Assembly: GCA_031289015.1 (NCBI GenBank)
Contig: JAITQG010000052.1
Location: 1-51,372 of the forward strand
DNA from: Lactobacillaceae bacterium
GTDB taxonomy: Bacteria > Bacillota > Bacilli > Lactobacillales > Lactobacillaceae
Direction of reading: 5' to 3'
Length of the DNA stretch: 51,372 nt
The position numbers were made by a program, and so were the translations under genes. Below are positions 692 to 51,372 of this stretch, piece after piece (the first letter of the stretch is position 1; each line of letters opens with the position of its first letter). The notes below the pieces were generated by a model. That model made no database searches. It had not been told where the DNA came from and was given only the letters and a program-made list of their open reading frames with translations.

Positions 692-818
692 AGTATATAC
701 CTCCATATGTATAAGCATAATCGATGAAACTTTAGCCTGAATTAAAGGGAGAATAAAATAAGCTTAAGGCTAAACACTTGGAGGGGTTGAAGGCATCTTT
801 ATAATAGGAGGTGTTTTT

Positions 819-28799: not shown

Positions 28800-28834
28800 A
28801 GCTTGGTAATTTTGATAATTGCCAGGCTTTTTTT
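28800..28834 (+). terminator. Terminator of the permease gene
   Basis: AGCTTGGTAATT / AATTGCCAGGCT stem and T run. Confidence 0.87.
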
Positions 28835-28896
28835 AGCGTTTTTTAGATTTTGAGGCATCTTCTTAGTGTAGGGGGTAAAAAAGGTAGAAATAGCAA

Positions 28897-28945: not shown

Positions 28946-29143
28946 GTGGTTTAATACAAATATAAGTTCTTGGCAAAGTTGGCACGAAAAAACGGCTGGC
29001 GCGAAAATAGAGTGCGGGGCAGCCAGCATAGCTTTGAAAAAGAGGGAGTCAAAGAAGTTCTGACAATCCCACTGCATGGAAACAAAGCATTGCCCATTAG
29101 AACTGCTAAGAGTATTTTAAAACTAATTGAAGACACAAAATAA
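28946..29143 (+). pseudogene. hicA: hicA, toxin gene with a nonsense third codon
   Basis: Frame 28946-29143 reads as a HicA-like mRNA interferase: KFLAKLARKNGWRENRVRGS, then EVLTIPLHGNKALPIRTAKSILKLIEDTK. GTG at 28946 is 5 nt after AAGGAGG, but its third codon is TAA (28952-28954). No later ATG exists; only TTG codons (28970, 28979) far from an RBS could restart. The active-site stretch reads GSQHSF where HicA proteins usually have GSH. Most likely a dead toxin with an intact antitoxin gene 10 nt downstream. An error in the sequence is the alternative. Confidence 0.72.
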
Positions 29144-29153
29144 AAGGACAACC

Positions 29154-29558
29154 ATGACAATTAAAAATATGAAATATGTATATTATGCAACTTTATATGA
29201 TGATGGTGATGCGGTGGGCGTTAAATTCGTTGATTTTCCAAGCGTATTTACATTTGGGAATGATGAATTAGACGCGATTGATATGGCACAAGAAGCACTG
29301 GAGTTGTATCTATGGACAGCCGAGGACAAAGGAATCCCGATTCCAGCGTTTACGCATGCCAAGGATATCACTGAAAAAGCAGGTGAACGGTTAATTGCGA
29401 TCAAAGTCAACACGGCTTTAGTGCGAGAGCAAGAGGCCAACAAATTAGTCAAAAAAACGTTAACCATTCCGGCCTATGTGGATCGGATTGCACGTGAGGC
29501 CGGTATCAACTTTTCGCAAGCCTTGACAGAAGCGTTGAAGCAAAAATTGGTTATCTAA
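29154..29558 (+). CDS. hicB: HicB-family antitoxin
   Basis: A 134-residue antitoxin. The N-terminal HicB partial-RNase-H-like domain (YYATLYDDGDAVGVKFVDFPSVFTFG, then AIDMAQEALELYLW) is followed by a ribbon-helix-helix-like C-terminus (LTIPAYVDRIAREAGINFSQALTEALKQ). AAAGG precedes the ATG at 29154. Order toxin-antitoxin and 10-nt spacing are typical for hicAB. Likely also represses its own promoter. Confidence 0.9.
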   Translation: MTIKNMKYVYYATLYDDGDAVGVKFVDFPSVFTFGNDELDAIDMAQEALELYLWTAEDKGIPIPAFTHAKDITEKAGERLIAIKVNTALVREQEANKLVKKTLTIPAYVDRIAREAGINFSQALTEALKQKLVI

Positions 29559-34055: not shown

Positions 34056-34174
34056 ATTCTTCAAAGTAGGCATAAGCCATTTCTTGCGAATAGTTAAGCT
34101 TGGCCGAGGCCTTGCGTTACTTCAATGCTGTCTGTCAAACCAATGAAATAGACGTGTAGTATGACTAGTACTAC
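34021..34174 (-). ncRNA. tracrRNA, transcribed opposite to cas9
   Basis: On the minus strand 34154-34119 is an anti-repeat. It pairs with the CRISPR repeat through a 19-nt perfect upper stem, a bulge of 2 crRNA and 4 tracrRNA bases, and a 6-bp lower stem (GCUUCA with UGAAGU), the classic type II-A geometry. After it comes AACGCAAGGCC and a small GGC-CUCG-GCC nexus-like hairpin, further stem-loops, then the terminator hairpin at 34021. A TTGACA-18-TATAAT promoter lies upstream. It guides RNase III processing and Cas9 loading. Confidence 0.88.
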
Positions 34175-36101: not shown

Positions 36102-36203
36102 GCTTCAGATGTCTGTCAAACCAATGAACCGGACGCCTCACGTAACTACTTCGTACGTGACGGGTACGCTTCAGATGTCTGTCAAACCAATGAACCGGAC
36201 GCC
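36102..36203 (+). CRISPR. Minimal type II-A CRISPR array, two identical 36-nt repeats and one 30-nt spacer
   Basis: Repeats lie at 36102-36137 and 36168-36203, identical over 36 nt and starting GCTTCAGATGTCTGTCAAAC. The single spacer (36138-36167) contains the inverted repeat TCACGTA-N9-TACGTGA. Repeat orientation agrees with the tracrRNA pairing, so the crRNA is read on the plus strand with the spacer 5' of the second repeat. Repeat and spacer sizes are standard for type II-A. Confidence 0.93.
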
Positions 36204-36303: not shown

Positions 36304-36361
36304 AATTTTGAGATATTGGGACGAATTTGGACCTGAATTTGTCGTATTTTAAAATAAAATA

Positions 36362-36410
36362 ATGAATTTTCAACAGAATGCGCATTTGATGGCATCTTCT
36401 TAATAGGAGG
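36362..36410 (+). promoter_or_regulatory. Cassette leader, copy 1
   Basis: A block conserved before each of the three cassettes: TGAATTTTCAACAGAATG, then a variable trinucleotide, then ATTTG and a GGCATCTTCTTAATAGGAGG end that includes the RBS. No -10 of standard form is inside it. Copies 2 and 3 are at about 37990-38038 and 38574-38622. Confidence 0.65.
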
Positions 36411-36421
36411 ATGATTTACAA

Positions 36422-36991
36422 ATGATCGAAAACTTTACGGAACAGGGTGTGCGACATGCGGCACTGAATATGGCATGGAGGGTTGTGTTTGCTTGGTGGT
36501 TTACTGTATTATTGTTAGTGGGTATTGGTGTTTGGTGGATTACGTCACGAGCCATGGCGACTGATTTTACGTCCGGAACGTGGATTGCTACTTGTTCAGC
36601 AAGTATGGCAACAATGATGTTACTATTCAATGTGAGTTGCCGTTATGTCGAATACAGAGTGGGTCGCGCGGAACGCATGCTTAAGAACACGCAAAAAATC
36701 AATGCTCGCTTAAATAGGTTACTCCGTGAAACTAGCAAAGGGGAGTTGCTTAATTCACGGGATGTGTTGCTTGAACTAATTGATATTGCTGAGGGTATTT
36801 ATTTTCAAGAAGTCGATTTGACACGGATTAACATGCAATATGCGGTGTTTATTCAACAATGGCTGATGGAAAATAAAGCACTGATCAAGTCGTTTGTTGA
36901 GCTTGAGCATTGTGATATCAGAGTTTTAATCTTGGTTGCGCATCAAATGAAAGGGGTGGGGGATGAAGAAGAAGAGTTATTCAAGGTTTGA
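36422..36991 (+). CDS. Cassette gene A, copy 1 (intact): two-TM membrane protein of unknown family
   Basis: A 189-residue protein I do not recognise. It begins MIENFTEQGVRHAALNMAW; two TM helices follow (about 19-43, rich in Trp/Val, and about 51-76), with a long soluble tail of predicted helices that includes RVGRAERMLKNTQKINARL, LLELIDIAEGIYFQEVD and an acidic end GDEEEELFKV. The tail is probably cytoplasmic. The ATG is 11 nt after AGGAGG. The last 29 nt overlap the small gene B. Two further copies (38049, 38634) are broken. Confidence 0.78.
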   Translation: MIENFTEQGVRHAALNMAWRVVFAWWFTVLLLVGIGVWWITSRAMATDFTSGTWIATCSASMATMMLLFNVSCRYVEYRVGRAERMLKNTQKINARLNRLLRETSKGELLNSRDVLLELIDIAEGIYFQEVDLTRINMQYAVFIQQWLMENKALIKSFVELEHCDIRVLILVAHQMKGVGDEEEELFKV

Positions 36992-37130
36992 TTTGTCTGA
37001 ATTTGAAGATATAATCGAAATTCAAATGAAATGGCCTGTATATAGTGGCAAACGACGCTCGTGGGAGAAATATGATTGGCCATTTTCACCAAAGCGGCCA
37101 TTGTGGAAGCGGATTTTTAATGTGTTTTAA
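36963..37130 (+). CDS. Cassette gene B, copy 1: 55-residue basic protein
   Basis: A product of 55 residues beginning MKKKSYSRFDLSEFEDII and ending SPKRPLWKRIFNVF. The C-terminal half (VYSGKRRSWEKYDWP...) is strongly conserved in the copies at 38361 and 39184. It is basic and Trp-rich with an amphipathic end, so it could contact membrane, nucleic acid or its partner protein. GGTGGGGG just before the ATG could act as an RBS. It starts inside gene A in another frame, which implies translational coupling. Confidence 0.8.
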   Translation: MKKKSYSRFDLSEFEDIIEIQMKWPVYSGKRRSWEKYDWPFSPKRPLWKRIFNVF

Positions 37131-37145
37131 TTAATTGTATATGCA

Positions 37146-37176
37146 GACGTTGATGATGTTTCATCAGCGTTTTTTT
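37146..37176 (+). terminator. Terminator of cassette 1
   Basis: ACGTTGATGA / TCATCAGCGT stem and T run. Related CGCTGAT-type terminators close cassettes 2 and 3. Confidence 0.87.
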
Positions 37177-37256
37177 GATTCCAAGGGTTATCACTTGCAT
37201 ATATATAATCACTTTTTGTAAAGGTAATGCATGTTTATAATTTAAGGAGAACGTAA

Positions 37257-37946
37257 ATGGCAGATAAAGTGAAGAAACCAATTTGGAAAAAGTGGTGGTT
37301 CTGGGGTGTTTTGGTAGTTTTGGTATTGGTCGTTGGCGTTGCTAATTCTGGTAAAGACACGACTAGTAAGCAAACAACTGATACGGCAGCAAAATAAAGC
37401 TCAACCATCAAGAGTTCAGCCAAGACTAGTTCAAAAGCTAGTTCAAAGGAAACACAACCACAGTATGTGAAAAATGGTTGGTCGTCAGAGGCTGAAATGA
37501 CAGCTGCAAAAAAAGAAATGGGAAAATGGACAAATCCCACTAAAGCTGAATATGACAAGTATTTAGCAAACCTATCGCCTGAAAAGAAAGCCACCAAAGG
37601 TCTTTCTGGTAATGAACTGGCGAATGTGAAGCAAGCCATTTCGTATGTTCAGACAACGCATTTGAGTCAACAAGGTTTGTATGCGCAATTGACCAGCGAA
37701 TATGGTTCAAAACTATCAGCTGATGAAGCTAATGCTGCGATTAATAAAATTGCCGATTTAATTGATTGGAATAAAGTCGCAGTTTATCAGGCTCAATCGT
37801 ATCGTGAAAGCGGTAATTTAACAGGGCAAGCTTTGATTGATCAATTGACATCAGAATATGGTGGCCAATTCCCAGCTGACCAAGCGCAATACGGTGTTGA
37901 TCATATTGATGACAAACTAAAAGGCAGCAATGATATTTGGAAATAG
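37257..37946 (+). pseudogene. Ltp-like superinfection-exclusion gene with an in-frame stop
   Basis: One reading frame of 229 codons broken by TAA at 37395-37397. Part 1 (46 residues) has a Lys-rich start and one hydrophobic anchor (WWFWGVLVVLVLVVGVA). Part 2 continues through a Ser/Lys linker into two repeats of the Ltp/host cell surface-exposed lipoprotein type: QLTSEYGSKLSADEANAAI and QLTSEYGGQFPADQAQYGV. Phage-encoded Ltp proteins block DNA injection by other phages. There is no lipobox. With the stop it would give a short anchor and no domain, unless read through; Met codons later in the frame (37467) have no RBS. Confidence 0.75.
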
Positions 37947-37960
37947 CACGGTACTAACTA

Positions 37961-37988
37961 AGATGTCCTTGAGGGGATGTCTTTTTTT
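37961..37988 (+). terminator. Terminator of the Ltp-like gene
   Basis: AGATGTCC / GGATGTCT with two wobble pairs, then a T run. Confidence 0.78.
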
Positions 37989-38048
37989 AATGAATTATCA
38001 ACAGAATGGTGATTTGGTGGCATCTTCTTAATGAGGAGGTGTTACAAA

Positions 38049-38386
38049 ATGATTGAACCATTTGTAGAGCGAGGTGTCCGAAATATTGCCCTGAAATCGG
38101 TCTGGTGGGTTGTTTTAAGCGGTGGGGTTACGGTATTATTATTAGTGGGGATTGGTGTTTGGTGGTTTACATCACGAGACATGTTGAATGTAGCTATTTT
38201 CAAGAAGTGGATATCACAATTGTCGCAGTTCAGTATTCTGACTTTATTAGTGTTTGGCTTAATAAGAATGTTGAGCAGATCAAAGCATTATCAAGGTTAG
38301 AAAGAATTGACATTCGAATTTTGATGCAAATTGTGTATCAGTTAGAAGAGGCGGGGGAGTATGAGAAAAAGATATTCAAGGTTTGA
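38049..38386 (+). pseudogene. Cassette gene A, copy 2, with internal deletion and frameshift
   Basis: The start (MIEPFVERGVRNIALKSVWW...) and first TM helix match copy 1 up to about residue 50. About 80 codons corresponding to the second TM helix and middle of copy 1 are absent, and the frame changes. The C-terminal part (YFQEVDITIVAVQYSDFI ... EYEKKIFKV) is in another frame and ends at 38386. No full protein is possible. Confidence 0.82.
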
Positions 38387-38525
38387 TATTTCACAGTTTG
38401 CCGATATTATTGAGGAACAATCACAAAAACCTCGATACGGTGGCAAACGGCGTTGGTGGGAAAAGCATGATATGCCATTTGATCCAATTCGCCCATTGTG
38501 GAAGCGGATTTTCAATGTATTTTGA
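38361..38525 (+). CDS. Cassette gene B, copy 2: 54-residue basic protein
   Basis: A 54-residue protein, MRKRYSRFDISQFADII at the start and DPIRPLWKRIFNVF at the end, with the GKRRWWEKHDMP core. Intact while its gene A partner is destroyed. GGGGGAG precedes the ATG. A terminator follows at 38540. Confidence 0.8.
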   Translation: MRKRYSRFDISQFADIIEEQSQKPRYGGKRRWWEKHDMPFDPIRPLWKRIFNVF

Positions 38526-38539
38526 TTAATTCAAATTGT

Positions 38540-38572
38540 AAGCGCTGATTGACCTGAATCGGCGCTTTTTTT
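38540..38572 (+). terminator. Terminator of cassette 2
   Basis: AAGCGCTGATT / AATCGGCGCTT stem and T run, immediately followed by the leader of cassette 3. Confidence 0.88.
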
Positions 38573-38633
38573 AATGAATTATCAACAGAATGGTCATTTG
38601 GTGGCATCTTCTTAGTAGGAGGATGATTGACCA

Positions 38634-39218
38634 ATGATAGAAAACTTTACGGAACAGGGTGTGCGCCATGCGGCACTAAACATGGCGTGGCGGGTTGTGT
38701 TTGCTTGGTAGTTTACTGTATTATTGTTAGTGGGGATTGGTGGATGGTACTGTGCTTGGCTTAACGTATTTGTGGGGTTCACGCCGGGGACGTGGATTGC
38801 GATTTGTTCGACATCGATGGCGACGTTGATGTTATTATTTAATATCAGTTGTCGATATATTGAATACCGCATTGGCCGAGCCGAACGCATATTACAAAAT
38901 ACCCAAAAGATTAATGAACGACTGAGCAAGCTGATGTGTGAAGCAATTGACGGGAAATTGCTTAAGCCACGATAAATTATAGTTGAATTGATTGCGATTG
39001 CGGATTGTATCAACTTTCAAGAAGTAGATTTGATGCTGATTAACTTGCAATATATCAAATTTATGGATTCCTGGTTGCTTAATAATTTGATGGTGCTCAG
39101 AGCGTTTGTTGAATTTGAGAAATGTGACCTTAGAGTTTTATTTTTATTTATGGTTGTCAAACAACTAGAAGAGGTGGGGGAGTATGAAAAAACAGCTATA
39201 TCCGCAGTTTTTGATTGA
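38634..39218 (+). pseudogene. Cassette gene A, copy 3, with two nonsense codons
   Basis: Nearly identical to copy 1 at the start (MIENFTEQGVRHAALNMAW), then TAG at 38709-38711 and TAA at 38973-38975 in one otherwise continuous frame. The end (GEYEKTAISAVFD) departs from copy 1, so a frameshift occurs near 39180. The second TM helix and the coiled tail are recognisable (FTPGTWIAICSTSMATLMLLFNI; GRAERILQNTQKINERL). Non-functional unless the stops are suppressed. Confidence 0.84.
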
Positions 39219-39351
39219 TGAGGGTGGAGATTTAATTGAACTTATGGAGCAAATACCCGTCTATTCTGGCAAACGCCGGTGGTGGGAAAAATATGATATG
39301 CCATATGATCCCAAACGGCCATTGTGGAAGCGGATATTCAATGTATTTTGA
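39184..39351 (+). CDS. Cassette gene B, copy 3: 55-residue basic protein
   Basis: A 55-residue protein starting MKKQLYPQFLIDEGGDLIEL and ending PKRPLWKRIFNVF, with GKRRWWEKYDMPYD. The N-terminal half has diverged more than the C-terminal half compared with copies 1 and 2. Intact, with GGTGGGGGAG before the ATG, although its gene A is broken. Confidence 0.8.
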   Translation: MKKQLYPQFLIDEGGDLIELMEQIPVYSGKRRWWEKYDMPYDPKRPLWKRIFNVF

Positions 39352-39360
39352 TTTTAACAG

Positions 39361-39391
39361 AGGCGCTGGGGTGATCAATCAGCGCTTTTTT
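39361..39391 (+). terminator. Terminator of cassette 3
   Basis: GCGCTG / CAGCGC stem and T run. Confidence 0.8.
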
Positions 39392-49256: not shown

Positions 49257-51032
49257 ATGGCAGAAAAGAAAAAGGAAAATTTCTTTAAAGAACTGTTCAG
49301 TTTCAAGACTGACAAAGAAAAAGGAATTGTTGGAATTCACCGCGCATTGGGCGTTGGTGCATGGGATATGTTTAACTCAGGTTCAGGTGGCTTGATCGGG
49401 TCATGGTTACTTTACTTCCTGACTGCGTTTGGTGGCGTTAACCCTGGAATCGCGGCATTGTTGATTTCAGCGCGTTTGTTCATCGATATGATTTGGGCAC
49501 CCGTGGTTGCGGTGTTGTCAGACAACTTCTATCGTTTCGCATTGGGACGTAAGTTTGGTCGTCGTCGTTTCTTCTTGATCTTTAGTATTCCTACATCATT
49601 AGCCTTCGTGGCGATGTGGATTCCAATGGCTGCTGGTTGGTCATGGTTGTACTATTTGATTGCATTTATCGTGTTTGACATCTGTTTGGACTTAATCTTG
49701 ATTCCTTGGGAGACTTTGCCTGCCGAGATGACCGAAGATTACACGCAACGAAACAAGATGGGAACAGTGCGTATGTGGGCCGCTGGTTTGGCGCAACCAT
49801 TGATCGCGTTGGTACCTTCATTCTTCATGAAGATGTTGCCAGCTGAACCTGGTTATACGACATCACCTTACGCATTGTTTGCGACTGCATTGCTATGGGG
49901 CGTAATGGGAATTGTCTTGACAGTTGCCGTTTACTTCTCATCATGGGATCCAATCCACATTTCAGCAGAACGCCGTGAATTGATTTTGGCGCACTTGGCC
50001 GAACAACGTAAGACAGTGCAAAGCCCAGTGAAGATTATTGCTAATAACTTTGCTAACTTGGCATTGACTTTGCGAATCAAGACTTTCCGTAAGCACTTGG
50101 TTTTGTATTTCTCAACATTCGGTGTGATTGATTCATACACAACGATCTTCGTTATCTTTGCGTCTGTATCATTCTTGCCAACTTTGACAATCGATCCTGC
50201 TTTGGCTGGAGTTATCTTGGCCATTCCATTGTTGATTATGACATTTGCATGGTCACCAGTTAGTGCATGGTTGTTGAACCATCCTAAGGTCGGGGCTCAA
50301 AAGTTGTACTTGATCGGGTTTGGAACTGTTTTGTTCGCCTGTGCAACGTATGGTGTAACATTCTTCTCACGTGCTTCATTATCTTCAGGACAAGCTATGT
50401 TGGCGGTTGTTACGGCAAGTTGTATCTTTACAATCGGGCGTAACATCATGGGTGGTGTGCCTTGGGTTGTCTTCCCTATGATGGCCGACATTGATGAAGT
50501 TATCAGTCGTGAAAAGCGCGCCGGTGTCTTTGCTGGAGCCATGACGTTCGTGCGTAAGTTTACGAATGCCATCTTTAATATCATTATCGGTGCCGTAATG
50601 GGCTGGGCAGGATATAACCAACAAGTTTCACAATCAGCTGACAAGATTACTGCTTATGTTGCAAAGCATGGTGGGACAACTAAGGAAGCCTTTGAAAAAA
50701 TTGTTACTGATGAAAAGCTTGCAAACCAAATCCACAGCGCTGGGACTGGAATTGCATACTTGATGGTGTTCTTCGTTGGAGCTTTGGTTATCTGGGCAAT
50801 GTGGAATGCGGCTACATTTAAGTTGAATTCACATACGCACCAAGTTTTGATGACAGAAATCGAACGTTTCCGTGAAGTTGGGGTTTTGGACGAAGAAGCT
50901 ATTGAAGCTGCTAAGGCTCAAGTTGACCCTGAAACAAAGGAAGTTGTCGAAGCTTTGACTGGTTTGGAATATAGTCAATTCGCTTGGTCAGGTGACGTTG
51001 TGCATGGTAACGCTAAGAAGACTGACGCTTAA
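49257..51032 (+). CDS. GPH-family oligosaccharide:cation symporter (XylP-like)
   Basis: A 591-residue transporter of the glycoside-pentoside-hexuronide family, 12 TM helices. GVGAWDMFNSGSGGLIGSWLLYFLTAF, FGRRRFFLIFSIP and the large C-terminal hydrophilic extension (about 545-591, VLDEEAIEAAKAQVDPETKE) are typical. It would import xylosides or aldouronic acids with a cation. Last gene of the operon, with a terminator at 51055. The extension is not an EIIA domain as far as I can see. Confidence 0.9.
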   Translation: MAEKKKENFFKELFSFKTDKEKGIVGIHRALGVGAWDMFNSGSGGLIGSWLLYFLTAFGGVNPGIAALLISARLFIDMIWAPVVAVLSDNFYRFALGRKFGRRRFFLIFSIPTSLAFVAMWIPMAAGWSWLYYLIAFIVFDICLDLILIPWETLPAEMTEDYTQRNKMGTVRMWAAGLAQPLIALVPSFFMKMLPAEPGYTTSPYALFATALLWGVMGIVLTVAVYFSSWDPIHISAERRELILAHLAEQRKTVQSPVKIIANNFANLALTLRIKTFRKHLVLYFSTFGVIDSYTTIFVIFASVSFLPTLTIDPALAGVILAIPLLIMTFAWSPVSAWLLNHPKVGAQKLYLIGFGTVLFACATYGVTFFSRASLSSGQAMLAVVTASCIFTIGRNIMGGVPWVVFPMMADIDEVISREKRAGVFAGAMTFVRKFTNAIFNIIIGAVMGWAGYNQQVSQSADKITAYVAKHGGTTKEAFEKIVTDEKLANQIHSAGTGIAYLMVFFVGALVIWAMWNAATFKLNSHTHQVLMTEIERFREVGVLDEEAIEAAKAQVDPETKEVVEALTGLEYSQFAWSGDVVHGNAKKTDA

Positions 51033-51054
51033 GGTTTGTTTTCGAATAATAATT

Positions 51055-51088
51055 AGGTTGAACTGGGTTTCTGGTTTGGCCTTTTTTT
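51055..51088 (+). terminator. Terminator of the xylan side-chain operon
   Basis: AGGTTGAAC / GTTTGGCCT stem (with wobble pairs) and a T run. Confidence 0.8.
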
Positions 51089-51098
51089 GTGGTTTCTT

Positions 51099-51265
<167 letters not shown>

Positions 51266-51271
51266 TGGTGG

Positions 51272-51325
51272 GGAATTATGGGAATGACAGGAATTATGGG
51301 AGTGATGGGAATTATGGGGACGATG
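51272..51325. repeat. Tandem repeat of 18 nt, three copies
   Basis: Three consecutive units that start GGAATTATGGG: 51272-51289, 51290-51307 and 51308-51325, differing in the last 7 bases. They follow the G runs. No gene support; the glycine-rich reading frames here are a by-product. Confidence 0.7.
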
Positions 51326-51372
51326 GGGGTGGTGGCTGCTGCCGGAGGTTTGTTGCCGGTTGAAAAAATTTG

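Follow-up and report, generated by a model that had tools for sequence, protein, structure and literature searches.

The 51,372-nucleotide contig JAITQG010000052.1 of a Lactobacillaceae bacterium (assembly GCA_031289015.1; this whole stretch is called the window below) carries, beside a CRISPR locus, three copies of a two-gene cassette (nucleotides 36362–39389), each with a leader, a gene A, a small gene B and a terminator. We propose that these A-B cassettes are very probably late-competence genes, members of the competence regulon, and that their CRISPR neighbourhood looks incidental, since the box in their leader is common to the com genes of the same genome.

The leader box and the genes it precedes

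The A-B leader takes the form of a promoter-like box in two blocks, TTTTCAACA-N14-WGGCATCTTCTTA, and the box recurs at the same spacing upstream of dprA, comEA, comC, comFA, comGA, radC, cinA and coiA. The leader is accordingly not confined to the cassette. A search of the genome with the leader core, allowing up to three mismatches, gave 11 matches against none in the reversed control: five before A-B pairs, single matches before dprA, radC and cinA and before a HicAB-like pair and a Fic gene, and an eleventh (contig C53) inside a gene. The second search pattern gave 14 matches against one in its control and added comEA, comC and coiA, its extras being one match on contig C5 and one within a gene of the window (11396). 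By comparing the sites from these first two pattern searches a second block at fixed distance was derived. The strict form of the box, CR-N14-WGGCATYTTNWWW, has 19 matches in the 2.08 Mb genome, the reversed pattern none. Five of the 19 precede A-B pairs, seven precede comFA, dprA, comEA, comC, radC, cinA and coiA, and two precede the HicAB-like pair and the Fic gene; the other five (contigs C20, C28, C29, C36 and C38) have matrix scores of -6.2 to 4.2 and are taken as chance, the one on C38 lying 27 nt upstream of a 233-codon open reading frame (ORF).

The comFA and comGA genes were inspected by gene name, comGA being located with PF00437; its box has the same spacing and departs from the strict pattern in the last base. 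DprA (TIGR00732), ComEA (TIGR00426), CoiA (PF06054), CinA (PF02464), RadC (PF04002) and the comGA product (NF041000) exceed the family cut-offs, and comC matches only PF01478, below cut-off (E 0.0053). comFA, which encodes a helicase and is followed by comFC, was named, like comFC, by reading. The box ends 17–20 nt upstream of gene A; over the whole set its distance to the start codon runs from about 14 to 40 nt, while the 14-nt gap between the blocks is fixed.

A scoring matrix was built from the eight com sites alone, the A-B leaders being excluded. These leaders score 41.2, 38.3 and 39.0 in the window and 40.7 and 39.2 at two further pairs elsewhere in the genome, the maximum over 16 million random positions being 22.7. 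The training com sites themselves score 28.1–40.7, or 11.9–29.5 when each is left out in turn. Besides the A-B leaders, the window sites above 12 are those of comFA (32.6, a training site) and of the HicAB-like pair (19.4), the next position scoring 11.4; among 20 million random positions 6 reach 19.4, 48 reach 15 and 229 reach 11.4.

The genome holds a SigH/ComX-like sigma gene as well. A search with PF04542 found the principal sigma gene plus a weak match at C65:52665 (E 0.2), the product of which scores 46 bits against TIGR02937 (cut-off 42.9) and was matched weakly by SigH models. Its context, read from translations, is rlmB-sigma-rpmG-secE-nusG, which is the sigH context of L. sakei and B. 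subtilis according to the available part of PMC3364868. The same part reports that overexpression of sigH in L. sakei raises the transcripts of comFA, comEA, comG, comC and dprA, and the pneumococcal genes under ComX control in the available part of PMC6560143 include comEA, coiA, radC, dprA, a prepilin peptidase gene and comGA. The likeness to a SigH/ComX late regulon thus lies in the eight com genes that share the box and in the sigH context of the sigma gene; the pneumococcal ComX consensus given in PMC6560143, TMCGAATA, differs from the box described here.

Two of the boxed loci lie outside the com set. The HicAB-like pair (28970–29558; PF07927, PF15919) is preceded by a box-like site at 28825–28865, and, by reading, an in-frame TAA directly precedes the first possible start (TTG) of its HicA frame, which may be damaged. 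The Fic-domain gene (PF02661) has a competence-type box at C45:2537-2565, 113 nt upstream, with a score of 27.6. Near the boxed Fic and coiA genes lie two similar small ORFs (L099:1102-1344 and L054:1960-2229; 81 and 89 amino acids) with a hydrophobic start and with QPPDSF and LLKKPPEL in common; the one near Fic has no Pfam match.

Anatomy, copies and decay of the cassettes

The cassettes do exist, although part of the array has decayed (Table 1). The expected leader of about 50 nt is present in all three as a 50-nt element, two sharing 78% and 98% identity with the third, taken as reference, and a hairpin followed by a T-run stands after every B gene. All three B genes are open, and the predicted overlap of B with the end of A is seen in copy 1. 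The first-pass annotation had listed a gene A in every cassette, which holds for copy 1, the A genes of copies 2 and 3 being decayed; its three tandem copies are likewise present as cassettes but not in strict tandem order, a broken Ltp-type gene separating copies 1 and 2. The 3' part of this gene matches PF07553 with an E-value of 5.4e-31, and it has a terminator hairpin of its own.

Table 1. Coordinates of the A-B cassettes, of the gene between copies 1 and 2 and of the comFA box in the window; fold energies in kcal/mol
Feature	Position	Strand	Remark
Competence-type promoter box before comFA (comFA 819–2087)	763..803	+	Used for training; score 32.6
Competence-type promoter box, cassette 1	36362..36402	+	Score 41.2, matrix of the eight com sites alone
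Gene A copy 1, 189 aa, intact	36422..36991	+	N-terminal helical hairpin with hydrophobic segment, helical C-terminal part (predicted)
Gene B copy 1, 55 aa	36963..37130	+	29 nt overlap with A
Terminator hairpin with T-run, cassette 1	37145..37172	+	Stretch fold -15.4
Ltp-type (superinfection exclusion) gene, interloper outside the cassettes, one in-frame TAA	37257..37946	+	PF07553 and phrog_4980 on 3' part
Competence-type promoter box, cassette 2	37990..38030	+	Score 38.3
Gene A copy 2, decayed by internal deletion and frame change	38049..38386	+	Two separate matches, residues 1–71 and 123–189
Gene B copy 2, 54 aa, open	38361..38525	+	ORF
Terminator hairpin, cassette 2	38540..38567	+	Stretch fold -17.2
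Competence-type promoter box, cassette 3	38574..38614	+	Score 39.0
Gene A copy 3, full length, decayed by one in-frame TAG and one in-frame TAA (both within 38634–39191), without frameshift	38634..39218	+	
Gene B copy 3, 55 aa, open	39184..39351	+	ORF
Terminator hairpin, cassette 3	39359..39389	+	Stretch fold -14.7

Two more A-B pairs, both intact, occur on other contigs of the genome (C49:20906-21611 and C30:23273-23978), with A-B overlaps of 20 and 17 nt, respectively. In the source genome A and B are always found together, an open B following an A gene or its remains at all five places, with A broken at two of them. The pair was absent from 300 other Lactobacillaceae genomes searched, and searches of Pfam, NCBIfam, PHROGs and PADLOC and of plasmids, phages and viral contigs gave no relative of A or B.

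Cas genes are neighbours of three of the five copies. The pair on C49 has a phage integrase gene (PF00589) about 1 kb away and adjoins a Phd-like gene (E 0.0096, below cut-off); that on C30 is near neither, lying close to the contig end in a stretch with an aldo/keto reductase-like gene, tRNA-Gly and a deoC-like gene (all but the tRNA named by reading translations). No cas genes were seen beside either pair in the stretches inspected by reading. An earlier argument had drawn a role for the cassettes from their phage-defence neighbours; it loses its footing, with two of the five pairs lying elsewhere, the PADLOC scan empty and the leader tying the cassettes to competence genes. That scan covered A1, B1, B2 and B3, none of which matched a model even at E 1, and did not extend to the A proteins of C49 and C30. 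The type II-A array that adjoins cassette 1 (36102–36203) consists of only two repeats and one spacer, with a short palindrome within the spacer, and a repeat-like stretch (24 of 36 positions) between cas9 and cas1 (34121–34156) may mark the tracrRNA. Near the contig end, the window holds an ORF that reads as long glycine runs in G-rich sequence (50992–51363), possibly an assembly artefact.

The ratio of nonsynonymous to synonymous divergence (dN/dS) is 0.23–0.26 among the three intact A proteins and 0.09–0.35 among B pairs (9 of 10 computable), values that are rough, as the synonymous divergence dS exceeds 1 for most pairs. The seven B pairs with B2 or B3, the copies behind a broken A, range over 0.19–0.35, against 0.16 and 0.09 for the two remaining pairs; this hints, with little power at 55 codons and high dS, at looser constraint on B once A is lost. 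The loss of A in copy 3 was probably recent, because this broken gene still gives a dN/dS of 0.22–0.27 against intact A.

Copies 1 and 3 are 88–92% identical from the leader through the first hydrophobic segment of A (36360–36540 and 38572–38752), and about 50–78% identical in register over the remainder of A; dS is 0.42 in the first 38 codons versus 2.18 in the next block. This pattern suggests sequence exchange between the two copies, ending after the first hydrophobic segment. Seven consecutive codons in that segment are identical across the four A copies compared.

The A and B proteins

Neither product could be assigned to a known family, as had been supposed from the first: scans against Pfam, NCBIfam and PHROGs gave only matches below cut-off. 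For intact A the best family match was NCBIfam TIGR01620 (E 0.006, 16 bits, cut-off 160), and the best PHROGs match, in a collection without cut-offs, had an E-value of 0.038.

The structure model of A (mean predicted local distance difference test score, pLDDT, 73.6) has helices at residues 2–44 and 51–105, followed by a tail of shorter helices. By hydropathy, each of the three intact A proteins has one clear segment, and the C30 protein alone has a second above threshold. The description of A as a protein with two transmembrane segments and a helical tail is accordingly borne out in part: the helical hairpin and tail are modelled, and the second hydrophobic segment stays below threshold in A1 and A49. 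A two-transmembrane topology is likely.

B is a protein of 54–55 amino acids with three or four tryptophans, a net charge of +2 to +6 in the window copies and no evident export signal. Its N-terminal half varies in net charge (0 in B1, -3 in B3, +2 in B2). The conserved C-terminus, noted at the outset, is basic and aromatic (GKRRxWEK ... RPLWKRIFNVF), and its last 11 residues are invariant in all five copies. The model of B has one long helix (residues 11–23) and two short ones, the rest being poorly defined (pLDDT 69.3, predicted template modelling score 0.25).

The competence assignment and the possible role of A-B

Several points weigh against the assignment of A-B to the competence regulon and against the role proposed below. 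Similarity to the A-B leader first led to six of the eight training sites, and training and test are in that measure circular; what is independent in the box evidence is the single functional class to which the preceded genes belong, and the presence of the box at comFA and comGA, which were looked up by gene. When left out of the matrix in turn, dprA (11.9) and comFA (15.8) score weakly on their own. The sigma gene at C65:52665 fits general models and none that is competence-specific. In 27 other members of the genus the strict box occurs 1–6 times per genome (reversed control 0–4), and the best matrix score among 29 loci from those genomes, chosen for strict matches, is 22.0, inside a gene; the box there is unlike a regulon, so that conservation cannot confirm it. 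As to the proteins, homology ties neither A nor B to any function, the structural match list is at chance level, and A1 and A49 have one hydropathy segment above threshold, not two.

The box seems specific to the source lineage, in line with the low identity between species reported for SigH-like proteins in the available part of PMC3364868. No A-B counterpart was seen in the L. sakei sigH table in that part of the paper, nor among the pneumococcal genes in the available part of PMC6560143, the unnamed hypothetical proteins of which were not compared. Neither the box nor the gene pair was seen in those parts of the competence literature that were surveyed, in which no search by protein sequence was made.

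Within the competence reading, A-B quite likely has, in general terms, an accessory role in competent cells that is linked to the membrane. We consider it probable, as the best explanation overall, that each cassette is a self-contained late-competence operon for a membrane protein and a small partner which act on competent cells. A competence sigma factor of the SigH/ComX type would read the box, and the transcript would end at the hairpin after B, making each cassette an operon of its own. A would be placed in the membrane by its helical hairpin, in which one hydrophobic segment is clear and another weaker, its helical remainder being probably cytosolic. B would be translated from the start within the end of A, perhaps by translational coupling, and its C-terminus is probably a docking surface for A or for a conserved partner. 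Together they may then act on the envelope or growth of the competent cells that make them, in the manner of ComM; a self-protection factor or growth brake is the leading, though tentative, form of this proposal. Pneumococcal ComM is likewise a competence-induced membrane protein (PMC12214887, available part), with no sequence relation to A claimed. It differs in that comM is listed with the early (ComE) genes in the available part of PMC6560143, and A has a small partner and five copies.

It is doubtful that A-B is a new, species-restricted competence module for regulating or protecting competent cells, amplified to five copies under a lineage-specific promoter, in which A was lost twice and B was kept and may function alone in such cells. 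We have lowered our estimate of this version slightly because the B pairs behind a broken A have somewhat higher dN/dS.

A toxin, immunity or defence role within competence is possible. One form of it, rather unlikely in our view, is a toxin-antitoxin or abortive defence of competent cells against incoming phage or plasmid DNA, with A as membrane toxin and B as antitoxin. This would explain why B outlives A (open in 5/5 copies, with A broken in 2/5), and it is in keeping with the boxes before the HicAB-like pair and the Fic gene (19.4 and 27.6) and with Cas9, the Ltp gene and the phage integrase near some copies. Against it stand the lack of any PADLOC match, the C30 copy, which by reading has no defence neighbour, and the possible loosening of B behind a broken A (the low-power comparison above).

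An auxiliary part of the apparatus that takes up or processes DNA, for instance an anchor to which a cytosolic com protein binds, is to be judged just as improbable. The A-B box scores reach the height of those of the uptake operons, and the layout of a membrane part with a probable cytosolic part would suit such an anchor, but the pair is missing from the 300 other Lactobacillaceae genomes, and five self-contained copies, two with A broken, suggest an accessory rather than a core role.

We think it improbable to a greater degree that A-B is a competence-induced killing pair, a functional counterpart of CibABC in which B would be a leaderless, cationic, tryptophan-rich bacteriocin and A a membrane immunity or release protein. 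Leaderless bacteriocins such as aureocin A53 and lacticin Q resemble B in size, cationic charge and tryptophans, and several diverged copies with decayed A genes are reminiscent of bacteriocin loci. B differs from these bacteriocins in an N-terminal half that is neutral to acidic in B1 and B3, in a C-terminus whose invariance is unlike that of a diversifying toxin, and in its surroundings, no transporter being seen directly beside the cassettes in the ORF lists read (not all neighbours were family-searched); in its low-confidence model it is only partly helical. The bacteriocin peptides of CibABC carry leader peptides, whereas B, by eye, has none. Competence regulation of such factors has a precedent in cibA, cibB, cibC and cbpD, which are ComX-regulated in pneumococcus (PMC6560143, available part), and like A-B the cib genes are short and co-regulated; CibABC, however, is a two-peptide bacteriocin with one immunity factor according to the same source, and here A precedes B.

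That the box is another regulatory element, such as an activator site or a 5' RNA element, is very improbable: it ends near the start codon in several genes (14–20 nt), yet its fixed gap and variable start distance fit a promoter better than a translation signal, and the genes would be co-regulated with competence under either reading.

For this branch of the lactic acid bacteria there is, to our knowledge, little on record about natural competence. With the late-competence reading of A-B, what had been an unknown cassette beside CRISPR becomes a testable competence gene, and the genome offers a competence-type promoter that can be read at 13 places (eight com genes and five A-B pairs), together with a sigma gene and an orphan gene pair within the set. 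If A-B does affect competent cells, it would provide a new handle on competence beyond DNA uptake.

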